Assembly (NCBI GenBank): GCA_943359455.1
Contig: CALRHL010000011.1
Span: forward strand, 1-38,445
Direction of reading: 5' to 3'
Source: Candidatus Uhrbacteria bacterium RIFOXYB12_FULL_58_10
GTDB lineage: Bacteria; Patescibacteriota; Patescibacteriia; UBA9934; GWF2-40-263
DNA length: 38,445 nucleotides
In this document: positions 2,725 through 16,627 of the stretch, piece by piece
Layout: the number at the start of each line of letters is the position of its first letter
Numbering within the stretch: position 1 is the first letter of the stretch
Translations under genes and position numbers: made by a program
The notes under the pieces: model-generated
What the model was told of the DNA's origin: nothing
Database searches by the model: none
Seen by the model: the letters and a program-made list of their open reading frames with translations, nothing else

Positions 2725-3918
2725 TTATTCTGTCACAATCCAGATTGTCTCGACATCCGTAATCACGAGTGCGTCGTCATCTTCTCGAGCCATCCCACGA
2801 ACGCGGATTTGATCATCGGCTGAAAGATCATCTTCTGTCACCTCCTCACGATCTTTCATGAAGACTGTGTCATCGTCATAATCTACGGTGACGGATGTAT
2901 ACTTTGCATCTTCCTCATCAGATGGTGTCATCACGATTTGATTTTCTTCCGTATCTACGGAATCAACCTCACCTGTATGACGCGCAACACCTTTGATCCA
3001 GATATTGTTGTCTTTGATGAGACGCGCGCTGATCGTTCCGTCATCGTTCACGCGACCAACAATCATCAAGTTATCTCCTGCTTGAAATTCATCGACTTCT
3101 GACGACCCCATAAATCGACGTACGAAATTTGTGTTTTCGTCATACACAATCGTCAGTTCGTCACCTTCCTCACCTACCAGATTATTTACATCAGAGGAGC
3201 GAAGATGTGAGTTCTCGAGTAGTGTCACAGAAAGGGATCCGGAATCATCGTCATCTTCATTGATATCATTCAACTCCACGAGAAACCCTCGTGTGCGAGC
3301 TTTCAAATAAATTTCATCCCCACGTCGCAAGACGACGACAATGCGCGCGTCTTCGGTATCCTTTTCAAGTCGAACACGGACACGATCTCCGATAACGAAA
3401 TCGGACAACGACGCAGGATTCGTCGAACCAACAACCATATGTGTATCGTCCGTGATATTCACAACATGATCTTCCTCGTTCCATTGAACGGTCATGGTAT
3501 CTGCATCCTCATCAACTTCTTGAATCCACCCATTTAATCCACGCATGTTGTATGGATTGAGCGAAGAGTTTACGACGGTTTCAGCAGTCACAACTCCCGT
3601 GTTCTCATTGAGTTCGCCAACCACGTGAAGATAATCTCCTGTGATCCAGTCGGACATGACGGTTGTATTGCCATCGTTCGTTCCAAAAACCGTTTCTTCG
3701 TCGATGTCGACGGTATAATCCGTAAATTCACCGGAAGGATCTTGTCGTACGACAATCGTCGTTGGCACATCTGTCGAGCTCAGCTCAATGAGTTGTCCCC
3801 AAAAATCGATATCGGAAGTTTCCTCAGACTCTGCCTTTACAATGGACATTGGAGCAAGAGCTGTAACAAGAACAAGAGCGGAAATACTCGTTTGAAAAAA
3901 TCGTTTTGTGATGGACAT
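2725..3918 (-). CDS. Exported acidic protein with several DUF5666-like beta domains
   Basis: A 397-residue exported protein of unknown function. Residues 1-29 form a signal peptide (Lys-Arg start, hydrophobic core, VKAES cleavage region). The rest is very acidic and contains about four copies of a unit of roughly 70-80 residues: a VDxxxxxxxV strand, a DDTxV or DENTxF motif, then GDxLxVxG or GDRVRVR, and a closing VxAxxV strand. This is the pattern of DUF5666-type small beta-barrels, which are common in Patescibacteria next to sigma/DUF5667 genes. It is the last gene of the operon, 20 bases after the DUF5667 gene and just before a terminator. A surface or periplasmic partner of the sigma/DUF5667 pair is inferred from the order only. 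No enzyme motif is seen. Confidence 0.75.
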   Translation of the reverse strand: MSITKRFFQTSISALVLVTALAPMSIVKAESEETSDIDFWGQLIELSSTDVPTTIVVRQDPSGEFTDYTVDIDEETVFGTNDGNTTVMSDWITGDYLHVVGELNENTGVVTAETVVNSSLNPYNMRGLNGWIQEVDEDADTMTVQWNEEDHVVNITDDTHMVVGSTNPASLSDFVIGDRVRVRLEKDTEDARIVVVLRRGDEIYLKARTRGFLVELNDINEDDDDSGSLSVTLLENSHLRSSDVNNLVGEEGDELTIVYDENTNFVRRFMGSSEVDEFQAGDNLMIVGRVNDDGTISARLIKDNNIWIKGVARHTGEVDSVDTEENQIVMTPSDEEDAKYTSVTVDYDDDTVFMKDREEVTEDDLSADDQIRVRGMAREDDDALVITDVETIWIVTE

Positions 3919-3938
3919 AAGAATAGAAATTAAAGAAA

Positions 3939-4529
3939 TTAAGGATTTTGTTCGCGCAGTGGCTGCAGCCGCTTGCGCATCATTTCTGGAGTTGGTGGAC
4001 GACGTGATTCGTCTTCAGATAATTGTACACGAGTATGAACACGTTCGTAACGATCGTTTTCTGTAGAAAGTTTTTCGATGATTTTATGACGACGTGGCAT
4101 CACCTCTACTTCTGTATTGAGCTCCTCAACAGATTGATCGAGCTCGATCGCAGCGGATTCGAGTACGGTCGAAATTTTCTCGCTCTGTTCTACCAAACGC
4201 TCTGCTTCATTCATGCGACGATTGTACATTTTTGCGTGAAACTCTGCGCGTGCTTCGGAAGTTGGTGCCATGCGCTCTTCCATCTTTTCCATGTTCTGTT
4301 TCATAAAATAAAGCGGGTGGCCTTCGATGACATCTGGACTCTCATAGGCATACACACCGGTTCCCATTCCAAAAACAAGGACAAGACAAAGCGCTCCGAC
4401 TGTTGCAAATCGAAAAACTGGACGTGGTTGTGGAACGCCTACGATTTTTTTGAGCAAGGCGTCAGAAAATGCACGCGTCGGGCGCGCTTCCCTTGCCATT
4501 CGATTTAATTGCCACTTGAGCCAGAACAT
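3939..4529 (-). CDS. DUF5667-type membrane protein, putative anti-sigma factor
   Basis: A 196-residue single-pass membrane protein. A basic cytoplasmic head of about 40 residues (LNRMAREARPTRAFSDALL) is followed by a membrane segment at about 41-62 (VGALCLVLVFGMGTGVYAY). The outer domain begins with EGHPLYFMKQNMEKMEERM and contains long charged helices, the hallmark arrangement of DUF5667. The gene overlaps the end of the ECF sigma gene by 25 bases, indicating translational coupling. From position and topology I infer an anti-sigma or sigma-regulating sensor; no known anti-sigma zinc motif is present. ATG at 4499 (MAREARP) is an alternative start. The head resembles the N-terminus of the alpha-2-macroglobulin gene at 9504-14663, which also follows an ECF sigma gene. 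Confidence 0.75.
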   Translation of the reverse strand: MFWLKWQLNRMAREARPTRAFSDALLKKIVGVPQPRPVFRFATVGALCLVLVFGMGTGVYAYESPDVIEGHPLYFMKQNMEKMEERMAPTSEARAEFHAKMYNRRMNEAERLVEQSEKISTVLESAAIELDQSVEELNTEVEVMPRRHKIIEKLSTENDRYERVHTRVQLSEDESRRPPTPEMMRKRLQPLREQNP

Positions 4530-5002
4530 ATTGTTTTGAGTTTTTTCATGGCGCGAAACGTTGCCACTTTAAGTGTGTCTGCAGATTTTCCTAAAAGTGG
4601 CGCCATGTCTTCATATCCGTACCCTTCCAGATACTTCATCGTTACAAGGCGTCGTTCATCTTTATCAAGTTGTGAAAGCGATTTATCAATAAGCATTTCT
4701 GATTCGCGTCGTTGCATCGTTTCATGACCATCTTCCCCAATCGCGGTTAATGTCACATCTTCGAGATCAACATCCTGCTTGCGATCGCGATAGAAGTTGG
4801 CGAGATGATTGTGGGCGATACGATAGATCCACGCAGACCGGGAGACTTCTGGGTCGTATTTCGCAAACGCATGAAACGCTTTCATGAAAATTTCACTCAC
4901 CAAATCCTCTGCAACATCCCGATTTCGCCCAACACGAAAAAACACGTATCGAAAGATACGATCCATGTTTTCCCTGTAAAAAAGTTCAAAATCAGGCTTC
5001 AC
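4505..5002 (-). CDS. ECF-family RNA polymerase sigma factor
   Basis: A 165-residue sigma-70 family regulator of the ECF type, with region 2 and region 4 only. Region 2 is seen in FELFYRENMDRIFRYVFFRV, DVAEDLVSEIFMKAF and WIYRIAHNHLANFYRDRK. Region 4 is seen in LSQLDKDERRLVTMKYLEG followed by a helix-turn-helix (YGYEDMAPLLGKSADTLKV). The frame is open to a TTG at 5044, but a TACAAT -10 box lies six bases before the GTG at 5002 and the conserved domain begins right after it, so GTG 5002 is preferred. The TTG overlaps the stop of the upstream membrane gene and cannot be excluded. The gene lies in the mraZ-rsmH-ftsL cluster, with a DUF5667 partner directly downstream. Confidence 0.9.
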   Translation of the reverse strand: MKPDFELFYRENMDRIFRYVFFRVGRNRDVAEDLVSEIFMKAFHAFAKYDPEVSRSAWIYRIAHNHLANFYRDRKQDVDLEDVTLTAIGEDGHETMQRRESEMLIDKSLSQLDKDERRLVTMKYLEGYGYEDMAPLLGKSADTLKVATFRAMKKLKTICSGSSGN

Positions 5003-5008
5003 AGGGGT

Positions 5009-5036
5009 ATTGTACACGATTTTTACCGTGTGGTAA
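5009..5036 (-). promoter_or_regulatory. Internal promoter of the ECF sigma gene
   Basis: Minus strand TTACCA (5031-5036), a 16-base gap and TACAAT (5009-5014), then six bases to the GTG start at 5002. This spacing fits a leaderless transcript that could be autoregulated by the sigma factor or read by the housekeeping sigma. Confidence 0.45.
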
Positions 5037-5040
5037 CAGG

Positions 5041-5595
5041 TCAAGGATGAGCAGATTTTGCCCTCCCAACAAATGCCATGGAGAACACAGGTAGCAAAAC
5101 CCAGAAGGCCTTTGCTGCATCACCAACGAAGAGGGTTCGTGTGAGTGGAGATAGTACATCCGATGCTTCCGTCGGAAAAAATGAAAGAGTGACACTGATG
5201 AGTAAGCCGACGTGTAGAATCGAAAATAAAATAACTTGCCACATCGGACCTTGCTCGGAATTTACGCCAAGTGTGCGCATGAGGGCGGATTGTGAAAGTA
5301 AGAAAAAAAGGAAGATGAAAATTCCGAGAAAAACAGAGACACGGAGTGCGAATGCATCGTTAATGTTTACACTCGCGTCGAAGTTTGTAATGAACGGGAC
5401 GTATTTAACCACTGCAAGCGACATGTAGATCGAGACGAGAATGACGAGCAACCTGTCTCGTCCAAGCGACACTCCGTACATAAGTGACGCGACAATAAAA
5501 AAAAGAATAATGAACATGTCCCACGACGGCGTCAGCCAGTTAATCGTGGAAAGGTAGGAGCTTACCTGACTTGTGTCGAGGGCAAGACCGAGCAT
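5041..5595 (-). CDS. Unknown polytopic membrane protein (about 5 TM)
   Basis: Family not recognised. The 184-residue product has about five hydrophobic stretches of membrane-spanning length: roughly 26-45, 48-66, 86-106, 118-140 and 158-177. Two short polar loops separate them (one with NFDASVNIND, one with PTEASDVLSP). There is no signal peptide and there are no catalytic-looking conserved polar residues inside the helices. It lies between the ftsL-like gene (41-base gap) and the ECF sigma gene, in the operon that starts with mraZ. A role in envelope or division biology is only a guess from position. Confidence 0.75.
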   Translation of the reverse strand: MLGLALDTSQVSSYLSTINWLTPSWDMFIILFFIVASLMYGVSLGRDRLLVILVSIYMSLAVVKYVPFITNFDASVNINDAFALRVSVFLGIFIFLFFLLSQSALMRTLGVNSEQGPMWQVILFSILHVGLLISVTLSFFPTEASDVLSPLTRTLFVGDAAKAFWVLLPVFSMAFVGRAKSAHP

Positions 5596-5636: not shown

Positions 5637-5990
5637 CTACCGTGCAAGAGCAACGGATGGAGCGGAAGCATTCACGTAGGTCGGGGTTTCAGCAGAAACG
5701 AGGCCGAGCATTTTAACAGATCGTGTGACGTTTTCGAGTGCACGTGCTTCGCGAGCCGTTACCTCAAGCTTTTGATTTTGTAGCGTGAGATCATGAATCG
5801 TGTCTTCGTATTCGCGAATGGTATAGCCATTTCCAACGGAACCGTTTACTTGAACGATGTAAACAATCGCGCAAAGCAAGACGAGAATCGTTGTAATAAC
5901 ATTCAGCGTAAATGTGTGCTGTGAAAAAAACGTAACAGCTGTGCGCGTTCCCTTTACACCAGAATACATTGTTTGTGAAAAATTGGACAT
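5637..5990 (-). CDS. ftsL: FtsL-like cell division protein
   Basis: A 117-residue bitopic protein. A cytoplasmic head of about 28 residues precedes one membrane segment at about 29-50 (LNVITTILVLLCAIVYIVQV), followed by a coiled-coil stretch (IREYEDTIHDLTLQNQKLEV) and a short tail ending in VKMLGLV. FtsL works with FtsB and FtsQ in the divisome to activate septal peptidoglycan synthesis. Sequence identity in this family is low. The assignment rests on size, topology, coiled coil and position directly after mraZ-rsmH, the standard place of ftsL in dcw clusters. An FtsB-like partner is at 30564-31004. Confidence 0.7.
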   Translation of the reverse strand: MSNFSQTMYSGVKGTRTAVTFFSQHTFTLNVITTILVLLCAIVYIVQVNGSVGNGYTIREYEDTIHDLTLQNQKLEVTAREARALENVTRSVKMLGLVSAETPTYVNASAPSVALAR

Positions 5991-6008: not shown

Positions 6009-6956
6009 CTAGATTCGCTCTGCGACGCGCATTTTTGCGGATCGAGAACGTGGGTTTGAATGAATCTCTTTTTCGGATGGTGTGATGATACGTTTGTTGA
6101 TGGTATTGAGTGTTTTTCCTTGCTGTGCGGCGAAAAATTTCTTGATCATGCGATCTTCCAGAGAGTGAAACGAGATAATTGCAATACGGCCACCCGGACG
6201 AAGAAGATCAACCATGTCTGGCAGGGCACGGCTAAGTTCTCCTAATTCGTCATTGACCGCGATACGTAACGCTTGAAAGATACGGGTGGCCGGATGAATC
6301 TTTCCGCGACGATGAATCACCGACGCGACAAGCTCTGCCAATTGCAGGGTCGTCGTGATTCGTTTGTGTTTACGTTCCTGGTAGATTGCTTTTGCAAGAA
6401 TGTGTGAGGCGGGTTCCTCACCGTACACGCGAAAAATCTGTGCGAGATCATCTTGATTCCATCCGTTCACAATTCCTTCTGCGGTCAGCTCTTGCGTTTG
6501 ATCGTATCTCATGTCCAACGGTCCTTCATGCGAGAACGAAAATCCGCGTGACGCGTCTTCAATGTGACCCGAAGAGAATCCAAGATCAAGTAAAATGCCG
6601 TCAACGTGATTAAATCCTTGAACATATGCGTGTTGTTTTACCTGTGCATAACTATCCTGTACCAACACAAGGCTATTAGAAAACCTCTCCAGTCGCTTGC
6701 GTGCGATGGACAGGTTCACAGGGTCTCGATCGAAACCAAGAAGCCGGCACCCAGGAAGGCCGCGTAGAAGTATTGCTTCTGCGTGACCTCCCTGCCCCAC
6801 GGTGCCATCAATAAACAATCGTTCATCCGACGTTCGGATCTGTCTCATGGCCCCACCATGAGATACTTGGCCCGTTCGACGGGCTTGCTCCGGTTCATCT
6901 ACAAGGTGTAGTAACACCTCGGTGACCAGTATAGGAATGTGTGTCGGTTCAGCCAT
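6009..6956 (-). CDS. rsmH: 16S rRNA (cytosine-1402-N4) methyltransferase
   Basis: SAM-dependent methylation of C1402 in the 16S rRNA decoding site. Diagnostic stretches: HIPILVTEVL at the start, LFIDGTVGQGGHAEAIL (SAM-binding motif I), GFDRDP, GILLDLGFSS, GPLDMRYD, ATRIFQALRIAVN, and IISFHSLEDRMIKKFF near the end. The 315-residue length matches the family. Between HLVDE (about residue 22) and RLFIDGT (about residue 46) there is an extra segment of about 24 residues, encoded partly by two adjacent DNA hairpins at 6843-6884; RsmH proteins normally go almost directly from the first helix to the IDGT motif. It is separated by one base from mraZ, with which it is surely co-transcribed. Confidence 0.95.
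   Translation of the reverse strand: MAEPTHIPILVTEVLLHLVDEPEQARRTGQVSHGGAMRQIRTSDERLFIDGTVGQGGHAEAILLRGLPGCRLLGFDRDPVNLSIARKRLERFSNSLVLVQDSYAQVKQHAYVQGFNHVDGILLDLGFSSGHIEDASRGFSFSHEGPLDMRYDQTQELTAEGIVNGWNQDDLAQIFRVYGEEPASHILAKAIYQERKHKRITTTLQLAELVASVIHRRGKIHPATRIFQALRIAVNDELGELSRALPDMVDLLRPGGRIAIISFHSLEDRMIKKFFAAQQGKTLNTINKRIITPSEKEIHSNPRSRSAKMRVAERI
6843..6884. repeat. Double-hairpin element inside rsmH
   Basis: Two adjacent perfect inverted repeats: TCTCATGG/CCATGAGA (6843-6850 with 6856-6863, 5-base loop) and GCCCGT/ACGGGC (6870-6875 with 6879-6884, 3-base loop). They lie inside a segment (about residues 23-46) that RsmH normally lacks, so this appears to be an in-frame repeat insertion. 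Confidence 0.65.
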
Positions 6957-6957
6957 A

Positions 6958-7389
6958 TCAGACTCCTAGTTCTCCCAGCTTTTCTGCGATATTTCCAACT
7001 TCCGCTTCTGTCGCCTTCTTATACGCCTCCCACTTTTCGGAATCCCACAGTTCGAGGCGGTTGTATAGTCCCGCGACCACAACCGCCTTTGTCATCCCGG
7101 CATACTGTCGGAGATATTCCGGCAGGATGATCCTTCCCTGTTTGTCTATGTCCACTTCCATTGCGCCCGCAAGCATGAGTCGGGCGAATGCACGTGAATT
7201 CGACTGTCCCAGGGGCAAGCTCGCTAATTTTAAAGCGAGTTTGTCCCACTCCTCCTTCGGGAACAGGAAAAGCGAAGTGTCGAGACCCCGCGTCACGACC
7301 GCCCCTTTCGCGAGGTCCAGACGAAACTTCACCGGGATCGCCAAGCGACCCTTGTCGTCGATGGTGTGGTTGTATTCGCCAATGAACAT
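6958..7389 (-). CDS. mraZ: Transcriptional regulator MraZ
   Basis: DNA-binding regulator of the division/cell-wall cluster that represses its own operon in E. coli. The 143-residue product starts with the classic MFIGEYNHTIDDKGRLAIP and has the second repeat half with DKQGRIILPEYLRQYA, i.e. two AbrB-like halves each with the DxxGR signature. No Shine-Dalgarno site precedes the ATG, but the N-terminus matches the family exactly. Upstream lie three 10-bp-spaced AGTGG boxes typical of MraZ operators and a strong promoter. It heads the operon mraZ-rsmH-ftsL-membrane protein-ECF sigma-DUF5667-DUF5666. Confidence 0.96.
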   Translation of the reverse strand: MFIGEYNHTIDDKGRLAIPVKFRLDLAKGAVVTRGLDTSLFLFPKEEWDKLALKLASLPLGQSNSRAFARLMLAGAMEVDIDKQGRIILPEYLRQYAGMTKAVVVAGLYNRLELWDSEKWEAYKKATEAEVGNIAEKLGELGV

Positions 7390-7630: not shown

Positions 7631-9532
7631 CTAATACCAGCTAAACTTTCCATCTGTCGCGAATTCTTCAGGAAATTCCATGTTTTTGCTCCATGTGATA
7701 ATCCGAGCCAATGTATCTTCGCGCTCCTGGTCTGTGGCAGGACGCGGAAAATAACCATTAATCTGCATCGGGACAAGCTCAAGGAAACGTGTTCCGTTTT
7801 CATTCCATGTGAGGTTCACAATCAAACTCTCATTTTGATCTTCCCCAATTTGATCAAAAATAAAATTTCCGAGCGAATAAAGGATCAAGCCATTGTTGTA
7901 CGTTTCAATACCTTGAAGCACATGTGGGTGATGGCCAACGATCACATCTGCGCCAGCGTCGATTGCTGTGTGGGCGAGTTCAGTTTGACGCGCGGATGGT
8001 GTGTGTTGGTATTCTGCTCCCCAGTGAAACGAGACAACGAGAATGTCCCCAAGCGCATCTGCCGCTTTCACATCAGATTCTAATTGCGCAAGAGTAATCG
8101 GTCGAAACAAATCCTCATACGCTAAAAAGACAACATGATCTTTCACGACCGGTTCAACGTGATTGGAATAATCGCCTACTGGTTCGATCCCGGCATCGAT
8201 GAGATTCTGAACAGAATCCGCCCAACCTGCGTAGCCATAGTCGTCGATGTGATTGTTTGCAACCGAGACAACGTTCATTCCAAGGTACTGTAAAACATCC
8301 ACGCGTTCTGGTTCGCCTTTAAAGTAAATCTCCTTCCCTGTTGATGGTTCAACGTTCGTAAGAACAGATTCGAGATTTGCAAAAACAATGTCGCTTTCTG
8401 CGAACACTTCTTTCGCGTCAGAAAACGCTTGCTCGATGGTGATTTTATCCATCGCGGTTTTAACAGCACGGCCGAGCATGATGTCGCCGACGAGGGAGAT
8501 GGTGAAAGATTCGGAGGCTATAGGCTTTAGGCCGAGAGGGGTCGTGGAAAAAAAGACGAGGTAGCTTGTGCCGGGGGCGTTTGGGTCGTTTAAGATCCGA
8601 TGAGATGTTTCTTGCCAGATAAGGTTTGATTCAAAACCGTATTTATCGTTCCACATCAGATAGGCAATCAGCGCGAACGGCGAATCGAGATTGTCGGACT
8701 TGAGACGATCGATTTGCTCGTAGCGACGGCCTGCCATAAGGGCAAGTGTTTCGGCGTCCATCTCGTCTGTTGTGTCTTGTGGGAGGTAATGAGCAAAGTC
8801 GATACTTGAAATAATAAGTGCATCATCAGGGAGGATTTGCTGTAACACAAGAACGAGGGACTGAGCGTAGTCTGTTCCCGCCGTGGATTTAGCAACGATC
8901 GGAACGATTGGAACGTCTGGAAATAATTCGGCTAAGTAGGAGACGTGGGTTCCAATTGAGTGTTCATTAACAAATGATGTAGGTTCATCAGATGCGACTC
9001 CAAGTGAAACAAGACGATCGACGAGCACGTCATCTGTTTCGACCGTTCCAAACGGTGATGTCCAGACACCATGTGTTGTTTGAATTTGTTTCTCACCAGC
9101 GTTCTCATGGTTGGGTCCAATGACGACGATGACGGAAGGATCGGAGTTGTCCGCGATGTCTGTCCAGAGCTCCATGAGTTTTGTGCCGACAAGTGTGTGA
9201 TGAGGAAGAACGGCGGCGGAGATCTGACTCTCGGAATCGGACGCCACTAAAGTGGCTTTGAAATCAGGATTCCAAGCCACTTTAGTGGCGTCCGAAACAG
9301 AACTGATAACGTCCTGGATTCCGAGAATGTCAGTGATGGAAAAAACAGGACGGGTAACCACCCCCGACCCCTCCTTGAAAAGGAGGGGAGGTGAGACACT
9401 GGACGAATTCGTATATTCGGACAAATTCGGAATTCGGCTCACTACTGTTACGAGAAGCAAAACCAACACCGCGGCGATGAAGGCCGCGGTGAGGGTTTGG
9501 CGTTTATTCAGTGATCGTAATCGTTTGAGCAT
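7631..9532 (-). CDS. Membrane-anchored MEMO-CapA fusion protein
   Basis: A 633-residue protein with an N-terminal anchor (about 13-33), a MEMO/AmmeMemoRadiSam-B-like domain (about 103-333) and a CapA/PgsA-type calcineurin-like domain (about 343-590). MEMO landmarks: AAVLPHH, VIGPNHE, EHSIGTHVSYLAELFPDVPI, SSIDFAHY. The Cys of the human MEMO metal site seems replaced (LDSPFALIAYL). CapA landmarks: SLVGDIMLGRAV, FANLESVLTN, VANNHIDDYG, SFHWGAEY, VGHHPHVLQG, YSLGNFIFD. CapA proteins act in capsule or poly-gamma-glutamate production and some are wall phosphatases; MEMO function is unsettled. The ATG lies 29 bases inside the end of the alpha-2-macroglobulin gene, so the two are coupled. The linker (about 48-99) is built from two palindromic repeats. 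The substrate is unknown. Confidence 0.85.
   Translation of the reverse strand: MLKRLRSLNKRQTLTAAFIAAVLVLLLVTVVSRIPNLSEYTNSSSVSPPLLFKEGSGVVTRPVFSITDILGIQDVISSVSDATKVAWNPDFKATLVASDSESQISAAVLPHHTLVGTKLMELWTDIADNSDPSVIVVIGPNHENAGEKQIQTTHGVWTSPFGTVETDDVLVDRLVSLGVASDEPTSFVNEHSIGTHVSYLAELFPDVPIVPIVAKSTAGTDYAQSLVLVLQQILPDDALIISSIDFAHYLPQDTTDEMDAETLALMAGRRYEQIDRLKSDNLDSPFALIAYLMWNDKYGFESNLIWQETSHRILNDPNAPGTSYLVFFSTTPLGLKPIASESFTISLVGDIMLGRAVKTAMDKITIEQAFSDAKEVFAESDIVFANLESVLTNVEPSTGKEIYFKGEPERVDVLQYLGMNVVSVANNHIDDYGYAGWADSVQNLIDAGIEPVGDYSNHVEPVVKDHVVFLAYEDLFRPITLAQLESDVKAADALGDILVVSFHWGAEYQHTPSARQTELAHTAIDAGADVIVGHHPHVLQGIETYNNGLILYSLGNFIFDQIGEDQNESLIVNLTWNENGTRFLELVPMQINGYFPRPATDQEREDTLARIITWSKNMEFPEEFATDGKFSWY
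9237..9295. repeat. Perfect 22-bp inverted repeat inside memo-capA
   Basis: Arms 9237-9258 and 9274-9295 are perfect reverse complements with a 15-base spacer. Each arm contains the small palindrome GCCACT-AA-AGTGGC. It encodes residues about 80-99 of the linker in frame. A 23-base part (9240-9262) recurs identically in uvrB at 22748-22770. Confidence 0.9.
9368..9388. repeat. CCCCTCCTT hairpin inside memo-capA
   Basis: Nine-bp perfect stem (9368-9376 with 9380-9388) with a GAA loop, encoding PPLLFKEG at residues about 48-55. From general knowledge, CCCCTCCTT...AAGGAGGGG palindromes are common dispersed repeats in many bacterial genomes, so this is likely an inserted repeat between the membrane anchor and the MEMO domain. 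Confidence 0.65.
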
Positions 9533-12500
9533 CGGAGTGGTTATTTGTTTCTGGATCGCGTATGGAACGAATGTAGACCGGTTCTGCGTAGTACGTTCCT
9601 GGTGTCACGACACGAGCGTAATAGGTCAACGTTTGTGCTGGACATTGTCCACCCCACATTTCTGTTGAGACAAAGAATGTTGCACGACCATCAATCTCTT
9701 GTGACGGATAACTTTCACACTCTGTTGATGAACTATTGTATCCATTCGGTGAAATAATTGTCAGTCCAGATGGGACAATATCTGTGACTTCATACGTCTC
9801 GCACGGAATATAGGTGGTTGGCGTTGTCATCGTTGAACCGTCTTCCAGTACTTCGACGATAGCATCCTTCTCATCCCATCCACAAATCGCATCTGGAAGA
9901 TCGTACACAATAGTGACTTTCACTAAATCACCTTCATCAAACTGCACTCCTGTTTGACCATCCGCTGAATACGTTCGAGAAACAGCGAGCGAATCATCAA
10001 CAGGTGCATTGAGATCAACGACAGGAGTATCGTACCGACTCACAACCATGAGCGCGCCATCGTGGACGGTAAAGGCGAACTGACTGAGATCCTCTGGTGA
10101 GGCGAGAACATCGGCTGTTGCTCCGCGATGAAGCACCGCACGATTTTCTTCTCCACGGAATGTGTATGAGAAGTCAACTTTATTTCCGATCATGTTCGGC
10201 AGTGTCTCTTTCACATACAACAAACGCTCGAGCACAACCGTTGTTCCTCCCGCGTCCATGTTCAACACATAATCATGAATCGCATCGCGTTCTGGTTCAT
10301 TCAATCCTCCCGCCAAAACAGCGAGAAGTGCTGTTCGTTCAACAGTGGTTTCTTGATTATCTGCTTTCAAATACACATATCCATTTTTTGCCGTCGCATC
10401 TTTTAACAGCTCGCGGTATATTTTACGCGCGCTTTCATCATCTCCTGCGCCTTGCAATCCAAGCGCAACCCAGAGCTGAACGTCCGTATCATCTCCAAGA
10501 TCTGGCGCCGCGCGCTGGAACTCCGCAAGCACTGGCTCGCCGAGCGCCGCAAGGCCTGCAAATGCCATAGCGCGTTGCACACCGCCCAGTGCTGACTCGC
10601 TCGTATCGTCAAGTCGCATGCGCAAGTACCACGCAATATCGGATTCAATAAACGGCGTGTCTTGCAAAAGCGCAACGCGAGCCGTCAGCTCGATGTCTCC
10701 GCTCGAATACGGAAGAAGTTGAACACCGTCACCGTTCCAATACGCGGATTCGTTGAATTCAGCAACATCCATTTCTTCCTCAAAGAAATCATTGAGTAAC
10801 GTCGTCGCTGTCACGCGCGCAAGTTGTTCATCCACGCGATCACCCCACCATCCAGACAACGTTTGAAGCTCACCGTAGTAACGACCCATTCCTGCTTCCA
10901 TGAATGTCACTTCGGTGTATCGATCATCCGCACCATCAACGGTGACGAGTGGATTGATGTCGCCAGACATGCTAACAACGACTGGCTTCACAAGACGCGA
11001 TGGAACAATTTTAATCTGTCGCGTTATCTTGTCTGTAAACGCGCCAGAGTCCGCTTGGATCGTGACGTTATGCGTCCCTAATTCTAAGTCTGGAAGTTCA
11101 ATACGAAGCGTCTCACCCGCTTGACCAGAAGAAATTTTCTCGTACGAGGCATCTGGAATTTGAACGGTGTATTTTACGGCATCCTTCAAACCAACCTGCG
11201 TTCCTGATCCGCGCACAAGAAGAATAGGTTCGTCTTTGTCCAAATAAGAATCGCGTGCAACAACATGTAAAAAGAATGGAAGGGTTGCGTCAACGTTGAT
11301 CTGTGAGTCTCCTGCAAGTTTTTTATCCGTCTGCAACGCTTGAGCGGTCACGCGCCATGAGGTGATGTTATCCGGAAGGGTGAATTGCATCGTCCCATTT
11401 CCTTGCGCATCTGTCTGAATCAAATCAAACGCGGCTGTGTCCTTGAACTCGAAACGTCCCATGGAATCTCTACTTCCACCACCACCTTTTTCTGCACCCA
11501 TGGAAGACACGGTCGCTTCCTTTGTCACAGCCGTCGCAACAATTCCGTCATCTACCCAGCGATACAGTTCTTGAAGAGGCATCACGTCCTCAGGAAAAAT
11601 GGCGTAATACGCTTCATCGACTACGTTCATGTTCACTTCTGTTTGAACGGGACGACCTGCCTTGTCTGTGACATGTACAGCAAGAGAGACCTCTTGTCCT
11701 GGTGCGTACACCGTCCGGTCTGGTGTCACATCTACCGTTAACTCAGACAGCTCCGTATTGTATCGAACAGGAAAACCACCTGAATCGTACCACCAGCCAT
11801 ACTCCGCTCCGACAATTTGGTACGCACCGTCCACGTACAAAATTCCGTACACACTGGTGTTTGGAACGTCTGCTTGTTCGAACGAAAATACATACTGTGC
11901 GGATCGACTGATAACTGTTTCTTGAATTCCTTGATGCGCCTGGTAATAAAGCATGCGTCCATTTTCCGGCACCACGAACGTTTTTCCAAATTGATTCACA
12001 CTCAAATGGACCGTATCGCCAACGGCATACCCAGGAAATTCCCACTGACGATCACCTGCATCGTCGTTTTTAAAGCTCAATGCGTTTGAATCTCCATATT
12101 CAAACTCATGATATTCCCACAAATCGATGGTGGTGCGATCGGTTTTTCCGTTTTCATCAGTCGCGGCAAGATCGATGCGATAATTTGCATCTGTTCTTGT
12201 TGCATCAAACGAGTACGAGGCAACTCCATTCTCTCCCGAGAGAACCGTGAACGAGTTGATCTGTTTCTCCACTCGCTCATACTCATAATTTTTTACGACC
12301 TGCTTTCGAACCCAATCATACGACTCACCTCTTTCGTGTTTTACATACGTAATCTCTGTCACCGTCCCGGTCACTGCTTGTCCTGCACGCACGGTCGGCG
12401 CAAATGTTTTCGGATCACCCGAATTAATCGCCTGTGTGTTACGAACAGTCACTTCTATCTTCCCCGTTCCTCCTTCCAATTTATTTGATTCCCAATCTGT

Positions 12501-14663
12501 ATCCAGATAAATCTTCGGTCCAAAAATCAGAACAGAAGATCCCACCTCCATGCTGCCTTCTTCCGGACGAACTGGTCGTGCGGAAAACCAAACAGAAATT
12601 GGATAGCGTGATTCATCCCGATACGAACAAGAAAAATTTCCATGTGCGTTTCCAGCTGTATCAAGTGTGAGTGTCTGATCTACACACTCCCCTTGTACAT
12701 GCACTTCTAATCCCTTCACAGGTGTCCCTTCAAAAAATTCTCCATGAACGGTGTAGCCAACAGAATCACCAACAAACGCCGCGTCGATATCTGGAGTAAT
12801 GGAAAGTGTATATGCTGGCTTCACATAATCCGCCACACCAATAGAACGCGACGCAATCACTTCCGTTTGATCTCCTTTTCCTTCTCCAAAAATTGGAGAA
12901 ATATTCAGCTGATAATAATCTGGGTTTGAATTGCGTAACACAAGCTCACCAGAATACGTTCCGTTTGGCGTCACCTCTACCGTTGTTGAATCAAATCGCG
13001 CGTCTGCAAATATCCGTTCTGGTCGCGAACCGTCCGCACGCGTCTCCACATACCCCCAAAACTTCACCGTATCATTTGGTTTATACGTTGGACGGTCGGT
13101 GTACAAGTACGTCCAATACGAGTCAGACACATTGCTTGGCACATGATTCTCCCATCGATACGTACGTGTCGTATCATCAAAAACTTTTTGCCCATCCAAA
13201 ACTACCGCAAGGGCACGATCGCCAGAACGAACGACGATGATGTCACTTTGTTCAGAAACGGACGGTGTAAACGCAAGTCCGTCTGCATTTGTTGTGACCG
13301 TTTCCTCATCACCTTCATATCCAACAGAAGCTCCGACCGACGGTGTATTTGTCGACGCATCATTCACCCACACGAGCGTCTTGTTCGTGGCCCGTGAAAT
13401 GTACGACGTTAAATTTGATGACTGAATAAGAGCCCATGCATGCGCACCGTTTCGTGAAACATCAATATAGTAATATCCTTCGCTCAATGGTTCTGGAAAA
13501 AGCAATGCGGATTCCCAATCGTACTCAACGCGCTCGGCATCAAATTCCATGATCGGTTCATTCTGATCTACATCATAAAACGTGTCTGAACTTGCATACG
13601 ATCGCCATTCAGATGTGGATGTTTTTAAGGCAGTAAGATACGCTTCAAACGAATCGTATCGGTACACCTTCACATGCATCGGCGATTCCTCACCCGCGTT
13701 TCCCCAGTCAGAATAACGCAACAAAACAGAATCGTTTGGGGTTACGGTCTGAATCGGATCAAACAGGTTTATCGAATACCCACGCTCCTCGTCGATGGAC
13801 GTTTCAAATTGAACGGTGGTATCTTCTCCAAGTGTTTCACGTGAACCAACGAGTGGAAGGTTTCCGGAAAGCATCACGGTGTAAACCGTTTGCGGTGTTA
13901 ATCGTTCCTCAGGAATAAACACAAACGCACGGCGCAATTTTTCAACACGTCCTTTTATTTCTGGAGTGATCGTCAATGCATTTTCAAACGCCTCTTGTTC
14001 AATATTTTCATAGTTGAAATTGAATTCGATTCCCGTATCGAGTGGAACGGCCGTCGATTTGTCTCCTGGAATTGAATAGAGAACTTGAAAATCACCTTTC
14101 ACCTGAAACGCCCAACGATAATCGCGCGTAGCTTCTTGACCATCTGCCCAAGTGGTAACGGTTGGAATTTCAAATTTGATAATCTCGTCGGATGAAAGTG
14201 GTTCTGCAAAAGTGATACGGACAGATTTATCAGAAACTTGTTCCACAGTCGGGTCGATGTTTCCCTGATTTTTTACGACGAGCAAATCTTCGATGTCTGA
14301 CGCAGACACGGAGTCTCGGCTTTCCAATAAAAATGACCCGTCTGCCTTCACTCCAAGAGAATCTGACGATTCCGGAGTGAGAGTAAACTGGTCTTGGGCG
14401 TACACGGTCTGCACACCAAAAAATGGTTGGACGATGAGAACAGCGATAATGAGAACCGCGAGAACAGGAGAAAGAACGGCAACGAGTTTCATGCGAGACA
14501 TAATCGGAACCGGCCGTTTGAGAGCTTCTTGAAGACGCAATCGAAGCGCTTCCTTAAAACCCATCCGCGGTTCGGTATGAAGAGAGTTAGCATGACGACC
14601 TAAATCAGCCGTCAGCTTCTCTAACGATGGGTCTTGCGATTCATTACGATTCTGATCAGTCAT
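9504..14663 (-). CDS. Giant alpha-2-macroglobulin-like protein with anti-sigma-like N-terminus
   Basis: A 1719-residue bitopic protein. Residues 1-58 are a cytoplasmic head, 59-83 a membrane segment (VAVLSPVLAVLIIAVLIV), the rest extracytoplasmic. There is an Ig-like SbsA-type domain first, then alpha-2-macroglobulin domains: LYTDRPTYKPNDTVKFWG (MG2/MG3, about 500), a Gly-rich stretch with K/R sites near 1050-1075 as a possible bait region, LPDNITSWRVTAQAL (about 1105), and helical repeats after 1270. Bacterial relatives trap attacking proteases. The thioester CxEQ is replaced: GDRVDEQ at about 1276 has Val where Cys should be, so covalent trapping is unlikely. The frame opens at GTG 14675, but ATG 14663 is preferred because it overlaps the sigma stop by 8 bases. 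Placement after an ECF sigma gene and the head's likeness to the DUF5667 protein suggest a sigma regulator (inference). Confidence 0.85.
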   Translation of the reverse strand: MTDQNRNESQDPSLEKLTADLGRHANSLHTEPRMGFKEALRLRLQEALKRPVPIMSRMKLVAVLSPVLAVLIIAVLIVQPFFGVQTVYAQDQFTLTPESSDSLGVKADGSFLLESRDSVSASDIEDLLVVKNQGNIDPTVEQVSDKSVRITFAEPLSSDEIIKFEIPTVTTWADGQEATRDYRWAFQVKGDFQVLYSIPGDKSTAVPLDTGIEFNFNYENIEQEAFENALTITPEIKGRVEKLRRAFVFIPEERLTPQTVYTVMLSGNLPLVGSRETLGEDTTVQFETSIDEERGYSINLFDPIQTVTPNDSVLLRYSDWGNAGEESPMHVKVYRYDSFEAYLTALKTSTSEWRSYASSDTFYDVDQNEPIMEFDAERVEYDWESALLFPEPLSEGYYYIDVSRNGAHAWALIQSSNLTSYISRATNKTLVWVNDASTNTPSVGASVGYEGDEETVTTNADGLAFTPSVSEQSDIIVVRSGDRALAVVLDGQKVFDDTTRTYRWENHVPSNVSDSYWTYLYTDRPTYKPNDTVKFWGYVETRADGSRPERIFADARFDSTTVEVTPNGTYSGELVLRNSNPDYYQLNISPIFGEGKGDQTEVIASRSIGVADYVKPAYTLSITPDIDAAFVGDSVGYTVHGEFFEGTPVKGLEVHVQGECVDQTLTLDTAGNAHGNFSCSYRDESRYPISVWFSARPVRPEEGSMEVGSSVLIFGPKIYLDTDWESNKLEGGTGKIEVTVRNTQAINSGDPKTFAPTVRAGQAVTGTVTEITYVKHERGESYDWVRKQVVKNYEYERVEKQINSFTVLSGENGVASYSFDATRTDANYRIDLAATDENGKTDRTTIDLWEYHEFEYGDSNALSFKNDDAGDRQWEFPGYAVGDTVHLSVNQFGKTFVVPENGRMLYYQAHQGIQETVISRSAQYVFSFEQADVPNTSVYGILYVDGAYQIVGAEYGWWYDSGGFPVRYNTELSELTVDVTPDRTVYAPGQEVSLAVHVTDKAGRPVQTEVNMNVVDEAYYAIFPEDVMPLQELYRWVDDGIVATAVTKEATVSSMGAEKGGGGSRDSMGRFEFKDTAAFDLIQTDAQGNGTMQFTLPDNITSWRVTAQALQTDKKLAGDSQINVDATLPFFLHVVARDSYLDKDEPILLVRGSGTQVGLKDAVKYTVQIPDASYEKISSGQAGETLRIELPDLELGTHNVTIQADSGAFTDKITRQIKIVPSRLVKPVVVSMSGDINPLVTVDGADDRYTEVTFMEAGMGRYYGELQTLSGWWGDRVDEQLARVTATTLLNDFFEEEMDVAEFNESAYWNGDGVQLLPYSSGDIELTARVALLQDTPFIESDIAWYLRMRLDDTSESALGGVQRAMAFAGLAALGEPVLAEFQRAAPDLGDDTDVQLWVALGLQGAGDDESARKIYRELLKDATAKNGYVYLKADNQETTVERTALLAVLAGGLNEPERDAIHDYVLNMDAGGTTVVLERLLYVKETLPNMIGNKVDFSYTFRGEENRAVLHRGATADVLASPEDLSQFAFTVHDGALMVVSRYDTPVVDLNAPVDDSLAVSRTYSADGQTGVQFDEGDLVKVTIVYDLPDAICGWDEKDAIVEVLEDGSTMTTPTTYIPCETYEVTDIVPSGLTIISPNGYNSSSTECESYPSQEIDGRATFFVSTEMWGGQCPAQTLTYYARVVTPGTYYAEPVYIRSIRDPETNNHSDAQTITITE

Positions 14664-15291
14664 AAAATTTTTCACATTTCTTCAACGCGCGGTGCATAAT
14701 GACTCCGACATTATTAGGTGTCGCTTTAATCGCTTTTGCAATTTCCCCATTATCACACTCACCGTAAAACTTCATGGTCACCGCGATTCGTTCTCTCTCA
14801 GGCAATTTCTCCAATATTTTCTCCAATTTCCCTCCCAAAATTTCCCGATCAATTTCATCTTGCGGTCTCGCATCAGACGAAGGACGATCATGCTTCGTCT
14901 CATCAAGCTCATCCGTCGGTTTTTTCGTGCGGTAATAATCTGTAATCCGATTCGTCGCGATGCGATAGATCCAACAGGTAAACGAGGTCTTCCAAACAAA
15001 CGACTGTCGATGCGTAAACGCTTTCATGAAAATATCCGAGACAAGATCTTCCGCCGTCTGCGCATGACCAACACGACGCACCACGAACGAATATATTTTC
15101 TGAAAATACCGTTCGTACAATTCATCAAACGCCCGATCGTCACCCGACTGCATGGAACGAACCAAGTCTTCATCTGTTTTCTCTGTGACACCTGTCGCTG
15201 TTTTAAAACTTCCAAGAAGGTCAGTGGCAAACGCAAAAAACCTCGTCCACAGAGGTTGAAACGATGAAATGGTTCTTGTATTACTTTCCAT
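14656..15291 (-). CDS. ECF-family RNA polymerase sigma factor
   Basis: A 211-residue ECF sigma factor. After about 40 variable residues, region 2 appears as DEDLVRSMQSGDDRAFDELY, TAEDLVSDIFMKAF and WIYRIATNRITDYYRTKK. Region 4 appears as LEKLPERERIAVTMKFYGE with the helix-turn-helix NGEIAKAIKATPNNVGVIM. The open frame extends up to 15540, but those 83 codons lie inside uvrC, do not look like sigma sequence and are probably not used. ATG 15291 overlaps the uvrC stop by 11 bases and is preferred. It is coupled (8-base overlap) to the alpha-2-macroglobulin gene, which probably controls it. It is related to the sigma factor at 4505-5002, sharing AEDLVS(D/E)IFMKAF and WIYRIA. Confidence 0.9.
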   Translation of the reverse strand: MESNTRTISSFQPLWTRFFAFATDLLGSFKTATGVTEKTDEDLVRSMQSGDDRAFDELYERYFQKIYSFVVRRVGHAQTAEDLVSDIFMKAFTHRQSFVWKTSFTCWIYRIATNRITDYYRTKKPTDELDETKHDRPSSDARPQDEIDREILGGKLEKILEKLPERERIAVTMKFYGECDNGEIAKAIKATPNNVGVIMHRALKKCEKFYD

Positions 15292-16627
15292 ACAACGATC
15301 GTTTGGATCGCAATGTTCGATGATATGATACCGCAAATCGGTGAGCTTCGTCACGGGCCTTCTGAAAAATCTCCTTCCCACGTATTGCGAGACGATGGAG
15401 CTCAACGTCAGAGCGGTCGTATACGAGACGGTCTTGTTTGCGATCAAATCCTTTTGCAATGCCGATGATCTGTGGAGGAGGTCGTGCAGTCGCGCAGGAG
15501 GATGGCAGAAGATCGTTGATAACTTTTTGTACGACAGCAACCTGTCCTTCTCCGCCGTCGATGACCATGAGGACGGGTGCTTCCCAGCCTTTCTGTCCCA
15601 ATCGAGACAATCTCCTTCGCATCACCTCTTCCATGCATGCAAAATCGTTCGCTCCCGTAACGGTCTTGATCTTGAATTTGCGATATAAATCTTTCGCAGG
15701 TTTCCCATCAATGAATACAACCATCGATCCGGTCGCGGACGTTCCTGAAATATTTGAGATGTCATATGCTTCGATGCGACCATTCAAATCGAAATATCCT
15801 TGTGGAGCAAGTGGGGTAAATGGAAGTTCGATGTCCTGTTTTGTGATGAGAGAAACGTCTCGTATATGCTCAAGCGCAAACAACTGTCCACGCAGTTTTG
15901 CTGCCTGTTCAAAATCCAGCCGATCTGCACATCGTTTCATCTCGCGTTGCAGTTCACGAACAATCGTCATTTTTTTGCCTTCGAAAAATAAAATCAGTCG
16001 CTTGATTATTTTTCGGTAGTCAGATTTTGAAATGGCACCAGTACAGACACCTGGACATTTACCGAGCTGGTGATCAAAGCATGCTCGCGAACGCCCGATC
16101 TTACAGGTACTCCACGGAATACTCGGACGGATCAGTGCCAGTGCTCGCTTCAGCGACAATCCACTCGTGTACGGACCAAACACAGCGAGATATTTCTTTT
16201 TTGCCGAAGGCTGTGAGCTTGTCGAACCGCTAAATGGATTCACTCCTTCCCGCTCCAAATCAAGCTGACGCATCACAAGTGGTCGTGGAAAATCCTCGTT
16301 CGTCACGACAAGATATTGAAAACTTTTATCATCGCGACTCAAAATATTGTACGGAGGCTTGAGCGCCTTAATCTGATTTGCTTCAAGCACGAGCGCCTCG
16401 ATCACTGTCGGTGTTTCGATGTAATCGATCCGTGCAATCTTTGAAACGAGTTCGGCGATCCGCGCTCCACGACCGTCCGCCTTGCCGTTGAAATACGACG
16501 AAACACGCCGCTGCAACGACGTCGCCTTGCCAACATACAGGAGTTGTTGGTCCGCATCAAAATAAAAGTACACCCCTGGTTTATCCGGAAGTTGATCATT
16601 CTGTATTTTGATCAAGGGTGGAATCAT
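15281..16627 (-). CDS. uvrC: UvrC, excinuclease subunit lacking the C-terminal HhH domain
   Basis: Makes the 3' and 5' incisions in nucleotide excision repair with UvrA and UvrB. Order: GIY-YIG nuclease (PDKPGVYFYF, LLYVGKATSLQRRVSSYF, EALVLEANQIKALKPPYN), GPYTSG, Cys cluster (STCKIGRSRACFDHQLGKCPG), UVR helix (MKRCADRLDFEQAAKLRGQ), RNase H-like domain (AYDISNISG, VMVIDGGEGQ, GIAKGFDRKQDRL, DEAHRFAVSYHR), retaining the Asp/Asp/His set. At 448 residues it is about 150 shorter than usual and stops at RSKRSLYGK, just where the tandem helix-hairpin-helix domain normally begins. No HhH coding was seen in another frame; the sigma gene follows. About 20 extra residues precede GPYTSG, including a dispersed-repeat piece. 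ATGA overlap with the M23 gene upstream. Confidence 0.92.
   Translation of the reverse strand: MIPPLIKIQNDQLPDKPGVYFYFDADQQLLYVGKATSLQRRVSSYFNGKADGRGARIAELVSKIARIDYIETPTVIEALVLEANQIKALKPPYNILSRDDKSFQYLVVTNEDFPRPLVMRQLDLEREGVNPFSGSTSSQPSAKKKYLAVFGPYTSGLSLKRALALIRPSIPWSTCKIGRSRACFDHQLGKCPGVCTGAISKSDYRKIIKRLILFFEGKKMTIVRELQREMKRCADRLDFEQAAKLRGQLFALEHIRDVSLITKQDIELPFTPLAPQGYFDLNGRIEAYDISNISGTSATGSMVVFIDGKPAKDLYRKFKIKTVTGANDFACMEEVMRRRLSRLGQKGWEAPVLMVIDGGEGQVAVVQKVINDLLPSSCATARPPPQIIGIAKGFDRKQDRLVYDRSDVELHRLAIRGKEIFQKARDEAHRFAVSYHRTLRSKRSLYGK
16206..16240. repeat. Dispersed-repeat fragment inside uvrC
   Basis: Minus strand contains GGTTCGACAAGCTCACAGCC, encoding SGSTSSQPSAK in an extra loop before GPYTSG. 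The core TTCGACAAGCTCA is familiar to me as part of widespread bacterial dispersed repeats. No second copy was found in this window. Confidence 0.45.

Follow-up and report, generated by a model that had tools for sequence, protein, structure and literature searches.

The window analysed here, a 38,445-nucleotide stretch of a Candidatus Uhrbacteria genome (1.07 Mb, 44 contigs), raises the question of what an ECF sigma factor, a single-pass membrane protein and an exported protein are doing inside the mraZ division cluster. A sequence-only reading had proposed this trio, and Pfam matches confirm all three genes at their places, with the first two overlapping by exactly 25 bases (4505-4529). Gene order also places mraZ, rsmH, an ftsL-like gene and a membrane protein gene upstream, with all genes of the group on the minus strand. 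Judged from its sequence, the trio is quite likely a compressed, self-regulating envelope circuit of an ECF sigma factor and its anti-sigma factor, of the kind formed by BldN and RsbN in Streptomyces. The genes, in order of transcription, are as follows.

6958-7389, minus strand: mraZ.
6009-6956, minus strand: rsmH (mraW).
5637-5990, minus strand: FtsL-like protein.
5041-5595, minus strand: membrane protein of 184 aa, a frequent upstream neighbour of the sigma-DUF5667 pair.
4505-5002, minus strand: ECF sigma factor gene, 165 aa, GTG start at 5002 (Pfam Sigma70_r2, 3.9e-13; r4_2, 2.8e-11).
3939-4529, minus strand: single-pass DUF5667 protein, RsbN-like putative anti-sigma factor, 196 aa (PF18915, 30.2 bits, cut-off 27).
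2725-3918, minus strand: exported DUF5666 protein, the third gene, 397 aa (PF18914, 2.1e-12).

An alignment of 19 orthologues points to the GTG at 5002 as the likely sigma start. Read by eye, the exported protein has a signal-peptide-like N-terminus, and a hairpin with a T-run near 2680-2707 closes the gene group of the trio. In sequence comparisons the sigma factor is a relative of the BldN family and not an equivalog: its best PDB relative is sigma-BldN (6dxo_A, 1.9e-22; next, 5e-15), and its best specific family is the BldN family TIGR02952 of NCBIfam (4.2e-26), at 91.9 bits far below the cut-off of 206.

Close relatives of the sigma factor (47-73% identity) occur in 18 genomes of the family, and the sigma-DUF5667 order is kept in 18/18 of these orthologues. 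The mraZ, rsmH, ftsL and membrane protein genes lie ahead of the pair wherever the contig reaches, with one exception (L080). We then searched 381 genomes of the class with a profile of the family DUF5667 proteins (alignment A1) and fetched 40 further loci with their flanks; an ECF sigma gene lies immediately upstream of DUF5667 in every one (40/40). Since related sequences enter this and all other counts, none of them is a tally of independent cases. Among the class loci, the 184-aa membrane protein is often retained beside the pair even where mraZ, rsmH and ftsL are undetected.

The proposal that sigma factor, one-pass regulator and exported effector form a general module stands in part. The sigma factor with an overlapping single-pass partner is real, but this is the ordinary layout of ECF and anti-sigma genes and not a new module. 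Classical class I pairs (RpoE-RseA, SigW-RsiW) have the same layout and the same expected logic, in which the membrane protein restrains the sigma factor and the sigma factor drives its own operon. Of 40 further ECF genes in the family, most likewise overlap or adjoin the gene of a single-pass protein that differs in head and outer part, and some are paired with a multi-pass protein; at three loci (L253, L254, L265) a three-helix membrane protein follows the sigma gene. The family also commonly carries a second sigma-DUF5667 pair (L081, on G000:C14, and L250-L284), whose head, LLKxxKDxPxxGGGFD, is unrelated. Two loci (L003, L008) have a second DUF5667 gene after the sigma gene and its DUF5667 partner, which suggests that one fold may serve both as outer domain and as exported partner.

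New here is a promoter-like sequence motif, GTWAC-N15/16-GKGTA, that stands before the sigma gene and recurs inside the sigma and DUF5667 genes. The sigma gene also contains a palindrome. The four elements are located as follows.

5013-5037, minus strand: site 1, promoter-like GTTAC-N15-GTGTA(CAAT), about 10 nt 5' of the sigma start codon, perhaps giving a leaderless transcript.
4945-4960, minus strand: palindrome CGTATC-TTTC-GATACG followed by a T-run, within sigma gene codons 14-23, a terminator/attenuator-like hairpin or operator.
4620-4645, minus strand: site 2, GTAAC-N16-GGGTA within the sigma gene (codons VT...GY), about 90 nt before the DUF5667 start.
4026-4051, minus strand: site 3, GTTAC-N16-GTGTA(CAAT) within the DUF5667 gene (codons RY...RV), 107 nt before the ATG of the exported gene.

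The sigma gene had been credited with its own internal promoter, and the motif just 5' of it bears this out. Site 1 in the window reads GTTACCACACGGTAAAAATCGTGTACAAT and ends about 10 nt 5' of the GTG start. Among spaced words counted upstream of 57 sigma genes, GTAA(C)-N-TGTA(T) occurs at 14 loci, against at most 5 after shuffling, and GTWAC-N15/16-GKGTA with its close variants is present in 24/57 upstream regions, where shuffled sequences gave a mean of 0.2 and at most 2. The other 33 of the 57, some close relatives included (L072, L075-L077), have no detected site 1, and one lineage with no detectable site 1 keeps site 2. BldN reads CGTAAC-N16-CGTTGA (PMC2375139), so the −35 half is common to the two systems; the −10 half here (GTGTA) differs from that of BldN (CGTT). 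Because the −10 half differs, site 1 is undetected in more than half of the loci and the family score falls short of its cut-off, we call the circuit BldN/RsbN-like and do not assign its sigma factor to the BldN equivalog.

Site 2 is held by codon choice in the sigma gene: the G127 codon is GGG in 19/19 orthologues (usage 0.38), and V120 is GTA or GTT in 18/19. The pattern GTWAC-N16-GGGTAY is also kept in several other families, and where the sigma and DUF5667 genes do not overlap (L122) a copy of the motif lies in the intergenic gap. For comparison we fetched 80 Streptomyces bldN loci, in which the adjoining gene is rsbN, with the aligned part of BldN; a CGTAAC-N-CGTT site is present in 77/80, mostly between bldN and rsbN. 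The rsbN gene has its own BldN-dependent promoter (PMC4255298). The logic of a putative promoter for the anti-sigma gene would match that of BldN-RsbN, here squeezed into coding sequence, although site 2, compared with the BldN-type promoter (−35 CGTAAC, −10 CGTT) by its letters only, has the GTAAC but GGGTA in place of the −10 box.

Like site 2, site 3 is under extreme codon constraint. Among the 16 orthologues with these residues, V168 is GTA in 16/16 (background usage 0.13) and the first arginine, R160, is CGT in 16/16 (usage 0.24); the second arginine is CGT in 14/16 and the tyrosine TAC in 15/16. Of 35 conserved degenerate codon columns, only the R and V columns of site 3 are invariant (median pairwise codon identity, 0.28). 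The site also follows the exported gene, being present in 15 loci with that gene and broken or absent in three loci without it. Fourteen loci of the window series with an exported third gene carry site 3 (one mismatch in L063), and in L080 the motif lies in the gap before the exported gene instead of inside a gene. L065 has lost the exported gene and has two changes in the site, and L078 and L079 have neither gene nor site. The distant L114 has a site at another codon position, and there too an exported DUF5666-like gene follows; L073 has the site and its contig then ends. The exported gene, whose presence the site tracks, appears to be a target. It is not a universal member of the module, being missing in 3/18 loci. 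In Streptomyces, the secreted chaplins and rodlins are under BldN control (PMC4255298).

Codon choice at sites 2 and 3 might be constrained by something other than promoters for a sigma factor, namely the local structure of the RNA, pausing of translation or a feature on the antisense strand, an explanation that we regard as unlikely. Selection at the RNA level may exist in the sigma gene, since the palindrome at 4945-4960 is codon-constrained as well: CGTATC-NNNN-GATACG is near-invariant and held by codon choice in 17/18 family orthologues, and it is nearly unique to the sigma gene (8/11 of the genomic places found in nine genomes). With its T-run, this sequence looks like an attenuator or terminator hairpin or a local operator. 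An antisense ORF moreover covers site 3. Against this explanation, the constrained codons of sites 2 and 3 spell the same dyad at the same spacing as site 1, and site 3 decays without the exported gene, moves to an intergenic position in one locus and changes its codon position in another.

Alternatively, the motif could be the promoter of another or the housekeeping sigma factor, in which case the loop would not be autoregulatory. Several of the −10 parts are TATAAT-like (GTGTATAAT), as this alternative would have it, but the −35 part, GTWAC, resembles the CGTAAC of BldN and not TTGACA. In eight relatives searched whole (about 9 Mb), 10/12 exact matches to YGTWAC-N15/16-GTGTAY fall in the trio locus, seven of them at site 3; a reversed control pattern was about as frequent (11 matches), so the enrichment is one of location and not of number. 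The whole genome of the window contains eight exact motif sites, of which two lie in the trio and one lies 33 nt before the gene for an exported 185-aa protein that is unlinked to the trio (G000:C24:6115-6669; L294/L295). This protein weakly resembles the CpxP family, below the threshold. The motif lies upstream of its gene in four genomes (the window genome, G401, G330 and G378), whereas relatives in five genomes without the mraZ-type sigma factor have no motif upstream. In G401, which is 79% complete, no copy of the mraZ-type sigma factor was detected, though the motif precedes the 185-aa relative. Furthermore, the sigma factor of the macroglobulin module described below has a distinct site of its own, GTAA-N17-CGTT, in 10/11 loci (in the window at 15284, minus strand), which is closer to the BldN site than is that of the mraZ-type sigma factor, the two having the same −35 and a different −10. 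Taken with these distributions, promotion by some other sigma factor is improbable, and we retain the reading of sites 1-3 as candidate promoters of the trio sigma factor.

The role of the DUF5667 protein had been expected to come from a comparison with the macroglobulin protein. That comparison proved unnecessary for the purpose, as RsbN is a proven example of a sigma-linked DUF5667 protein. RsbN is the experimentally established anti-sigma factor of BldN in Streptomyces (PMC8103513, PMC4255298) and carries PF18915 (45.6 bits, 9.5e-12, cut-off 27), which gives a sigma-linked role of DUF5667 a proven precedent. The membrane helix and DUF5667 domain of the window family align with RsbN in a profile comparison (E 1.4e-6). 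The protein divides into three parts.

4422-4529, minus strand: cytoplasmic head, residues 1-36, putative sigma-binding part; two helices, P-x-x-x-F-x-x-x-L-x-x-x-L motif, basic (alignments A1, A3).
4341-4421, minus strand: membrane helix, residues 37-63, from predicted structure and hydrophobicity.
4026-4322, minus strand: DUF5667 outer domain, residues 70-168, all-helical (PF18915; model pLDDT 91).

The whole protein is predicted to be all-helical (pLDDT 91), with head helices at residues 2-15 and 19-30, the membrane helix at 37-63 and outer helices thereafter; residues 1-40 contain 9 K/R against 2 D/E. The predicted fold has no match in the PDB with E <= 0.001, the full protein found nothing in the PDB by sequence, and a profile of the head found nothing meaningful there. 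The anti-sigma domain of class I (ASDI/ZAS) has four helices and at least 50 residues, often with an Hx3Cx2C motif. The window head, with about 36 residues, two helices and no cysteine, lies outside this class: it has neither the four-helix domain nor the zinc motif, and its protein belongs to the domain family DUF5667. According to reviews, RsbN defines the anti-sigma class ASDIII, whose members bind the sigma factor through short helices on the cytoplasmic side. For this reason we take DUF5667 to be, most plausibly, the sensing part outside the membrane, and expect the head of about 36 residues to bind the sigma factor. In the literature searched, the name DUF5667 is not used in any paper, and nothing relevant came up on ECF factors of either Patescibacteria or the Candidate Phyla Radiation.

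The likeness to BldN-RsbN extends from an adjacent sigma factor and single-pass partner, with DUF5667 outside one predicted membrane helix, to the nearest solved sigma factor, the −35 box GTAAC, a putative sigma-type site before the anti-sigma gene and exported proteins as probable targets. The window circuit differs in its overlapping genes, its sites within coding sequence, its −10 box (GTGTA instead of CGTT), its location in a division cluster, its much shorter outer and inner parts and a head that is not recognisably alike. A profile comparison detects no similarity between window-type heads and the head of RsbN (7.1, with 13/40 shuffles scoring as high). Heads of sister DUF5667 proteins (L144-L150 type, LPKPkL) do resemble it (17.4 vs 7.7 +/- 1.5).

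The window contains a second sigma-linked module, consisting of a sigma gene (14656-15540), a macroglobulin gene and a CapA gene (7631-9532), whose membrane protein served as comparator.

9504-14675, minus strand: alpha-2-macroglobulin protein, whose head has the same motif (PRMGFKEALRLRLQEA).

We trimmed each protein to the part preceding its membrane helix, scored the resulting head profiles against one another and used profiles with shuffled columns as controls. Window-type heads (n = 52) score 25.5 against macroglobulin heads (n = 13), compared with 8.3 +/- 1.7 for 40 shuffles (maximum 13.1) and 14.5 for the reversed profile (E 5.5e-5 for one comparison). As the heads score above both controls, their similarity goes beyond composition, as the sequence-only reading had anticipated. 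The motif common to both reads P-[SR]-x-x-F-K-x-x-L-x-x-[RK]-L. Among 28 pairs of head sets this one ranks first, and other sigma-linked heads fall below this level against the macroglobulin heads. The macroglobulin module pairs a sigma factor with a protein of related head and different outer domain. It has overlapping genes and a related sigma factor with −35 box GTAA in common with the trio, and differs in its alpha-2-macroglobulin outer part, its −10 box CGTT and its third gene, CapA/Memo. The sigma tree gave no resolution on whether the mraZ-type and macroglobulin sigma factors are sisters. In L121, natural in-frame sigma and DUF5667 neighbours read through the stop codon and modelled as a fusion gave pLDDT 83 and pTM 0.45.

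That the DUF5667 protein is an envelope protein standing by chance in a sigma operon is very unlikely: many DUF5667 proteins do lack an adjoining sigma gene, but the 40 class loci all have one directly upstream, the domain is that of RsbN, and a basic head with a motif common to another sigma-linked protein precedes the membrane helix. The domain occurs in 316/381 genomes of the class, and only 5/30 of the best-scoring matches fetched from other genomes have a detectable sigma gene directly before them, so DUF5667 also serves elsewhere.

The gene order, the domain identity with RsbN, the head similarity and the three conserved, codon-constrained promoter-like sites are present in the DNA itself; from these we infer sigma binding, inhibition, sensing and expression, and the use of sites 1-3 as promoters by the trio sigma factor. 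In the proposed circuit, the DUF5667 protein would be the anti-sigma factor, its two-helix cytoplasmic head holding the sigma factor at the membrane. The outer DUF5667 domain would sense an extracellular signal, and release or loss of the head would free the sigma factor. Once free, the sigma factor would drive all three genes of the trio: its own from site 1, that of the anti-sigma factor from site 2 within the sigma gene, giving negative feedback, and the exported DUF5666 gene from site 3 within the anti-sigma gene. Outside the trio, the gene of at least one further exported protein would also be under its control. With more reserve, we favour the fullest form of this reading: a complete feedback circuit in overlapping genes, with three promoters for the same sigma factor, two of them codon-locked within the preceding genes, and the same head joined to DUF5667 or macroglobulin sensors.

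For DUF5667, which most genomes of the class contain, homology to a proven anti-sigma factor provides a role. A lineage of small genomes with few regulators gains a predicted regulon and promoter, which tie its division cluster to exported proteins. Codon-locked intragenic promoters would be a clear case of regulation constraining protein-coding DNA. The head common to the DUF5667 and macroglobulin proteins supports the macroglobulin as a sensor on an anti-sigma factor and, if this is true, these small genomes would be a natural series of exchanged sensors.
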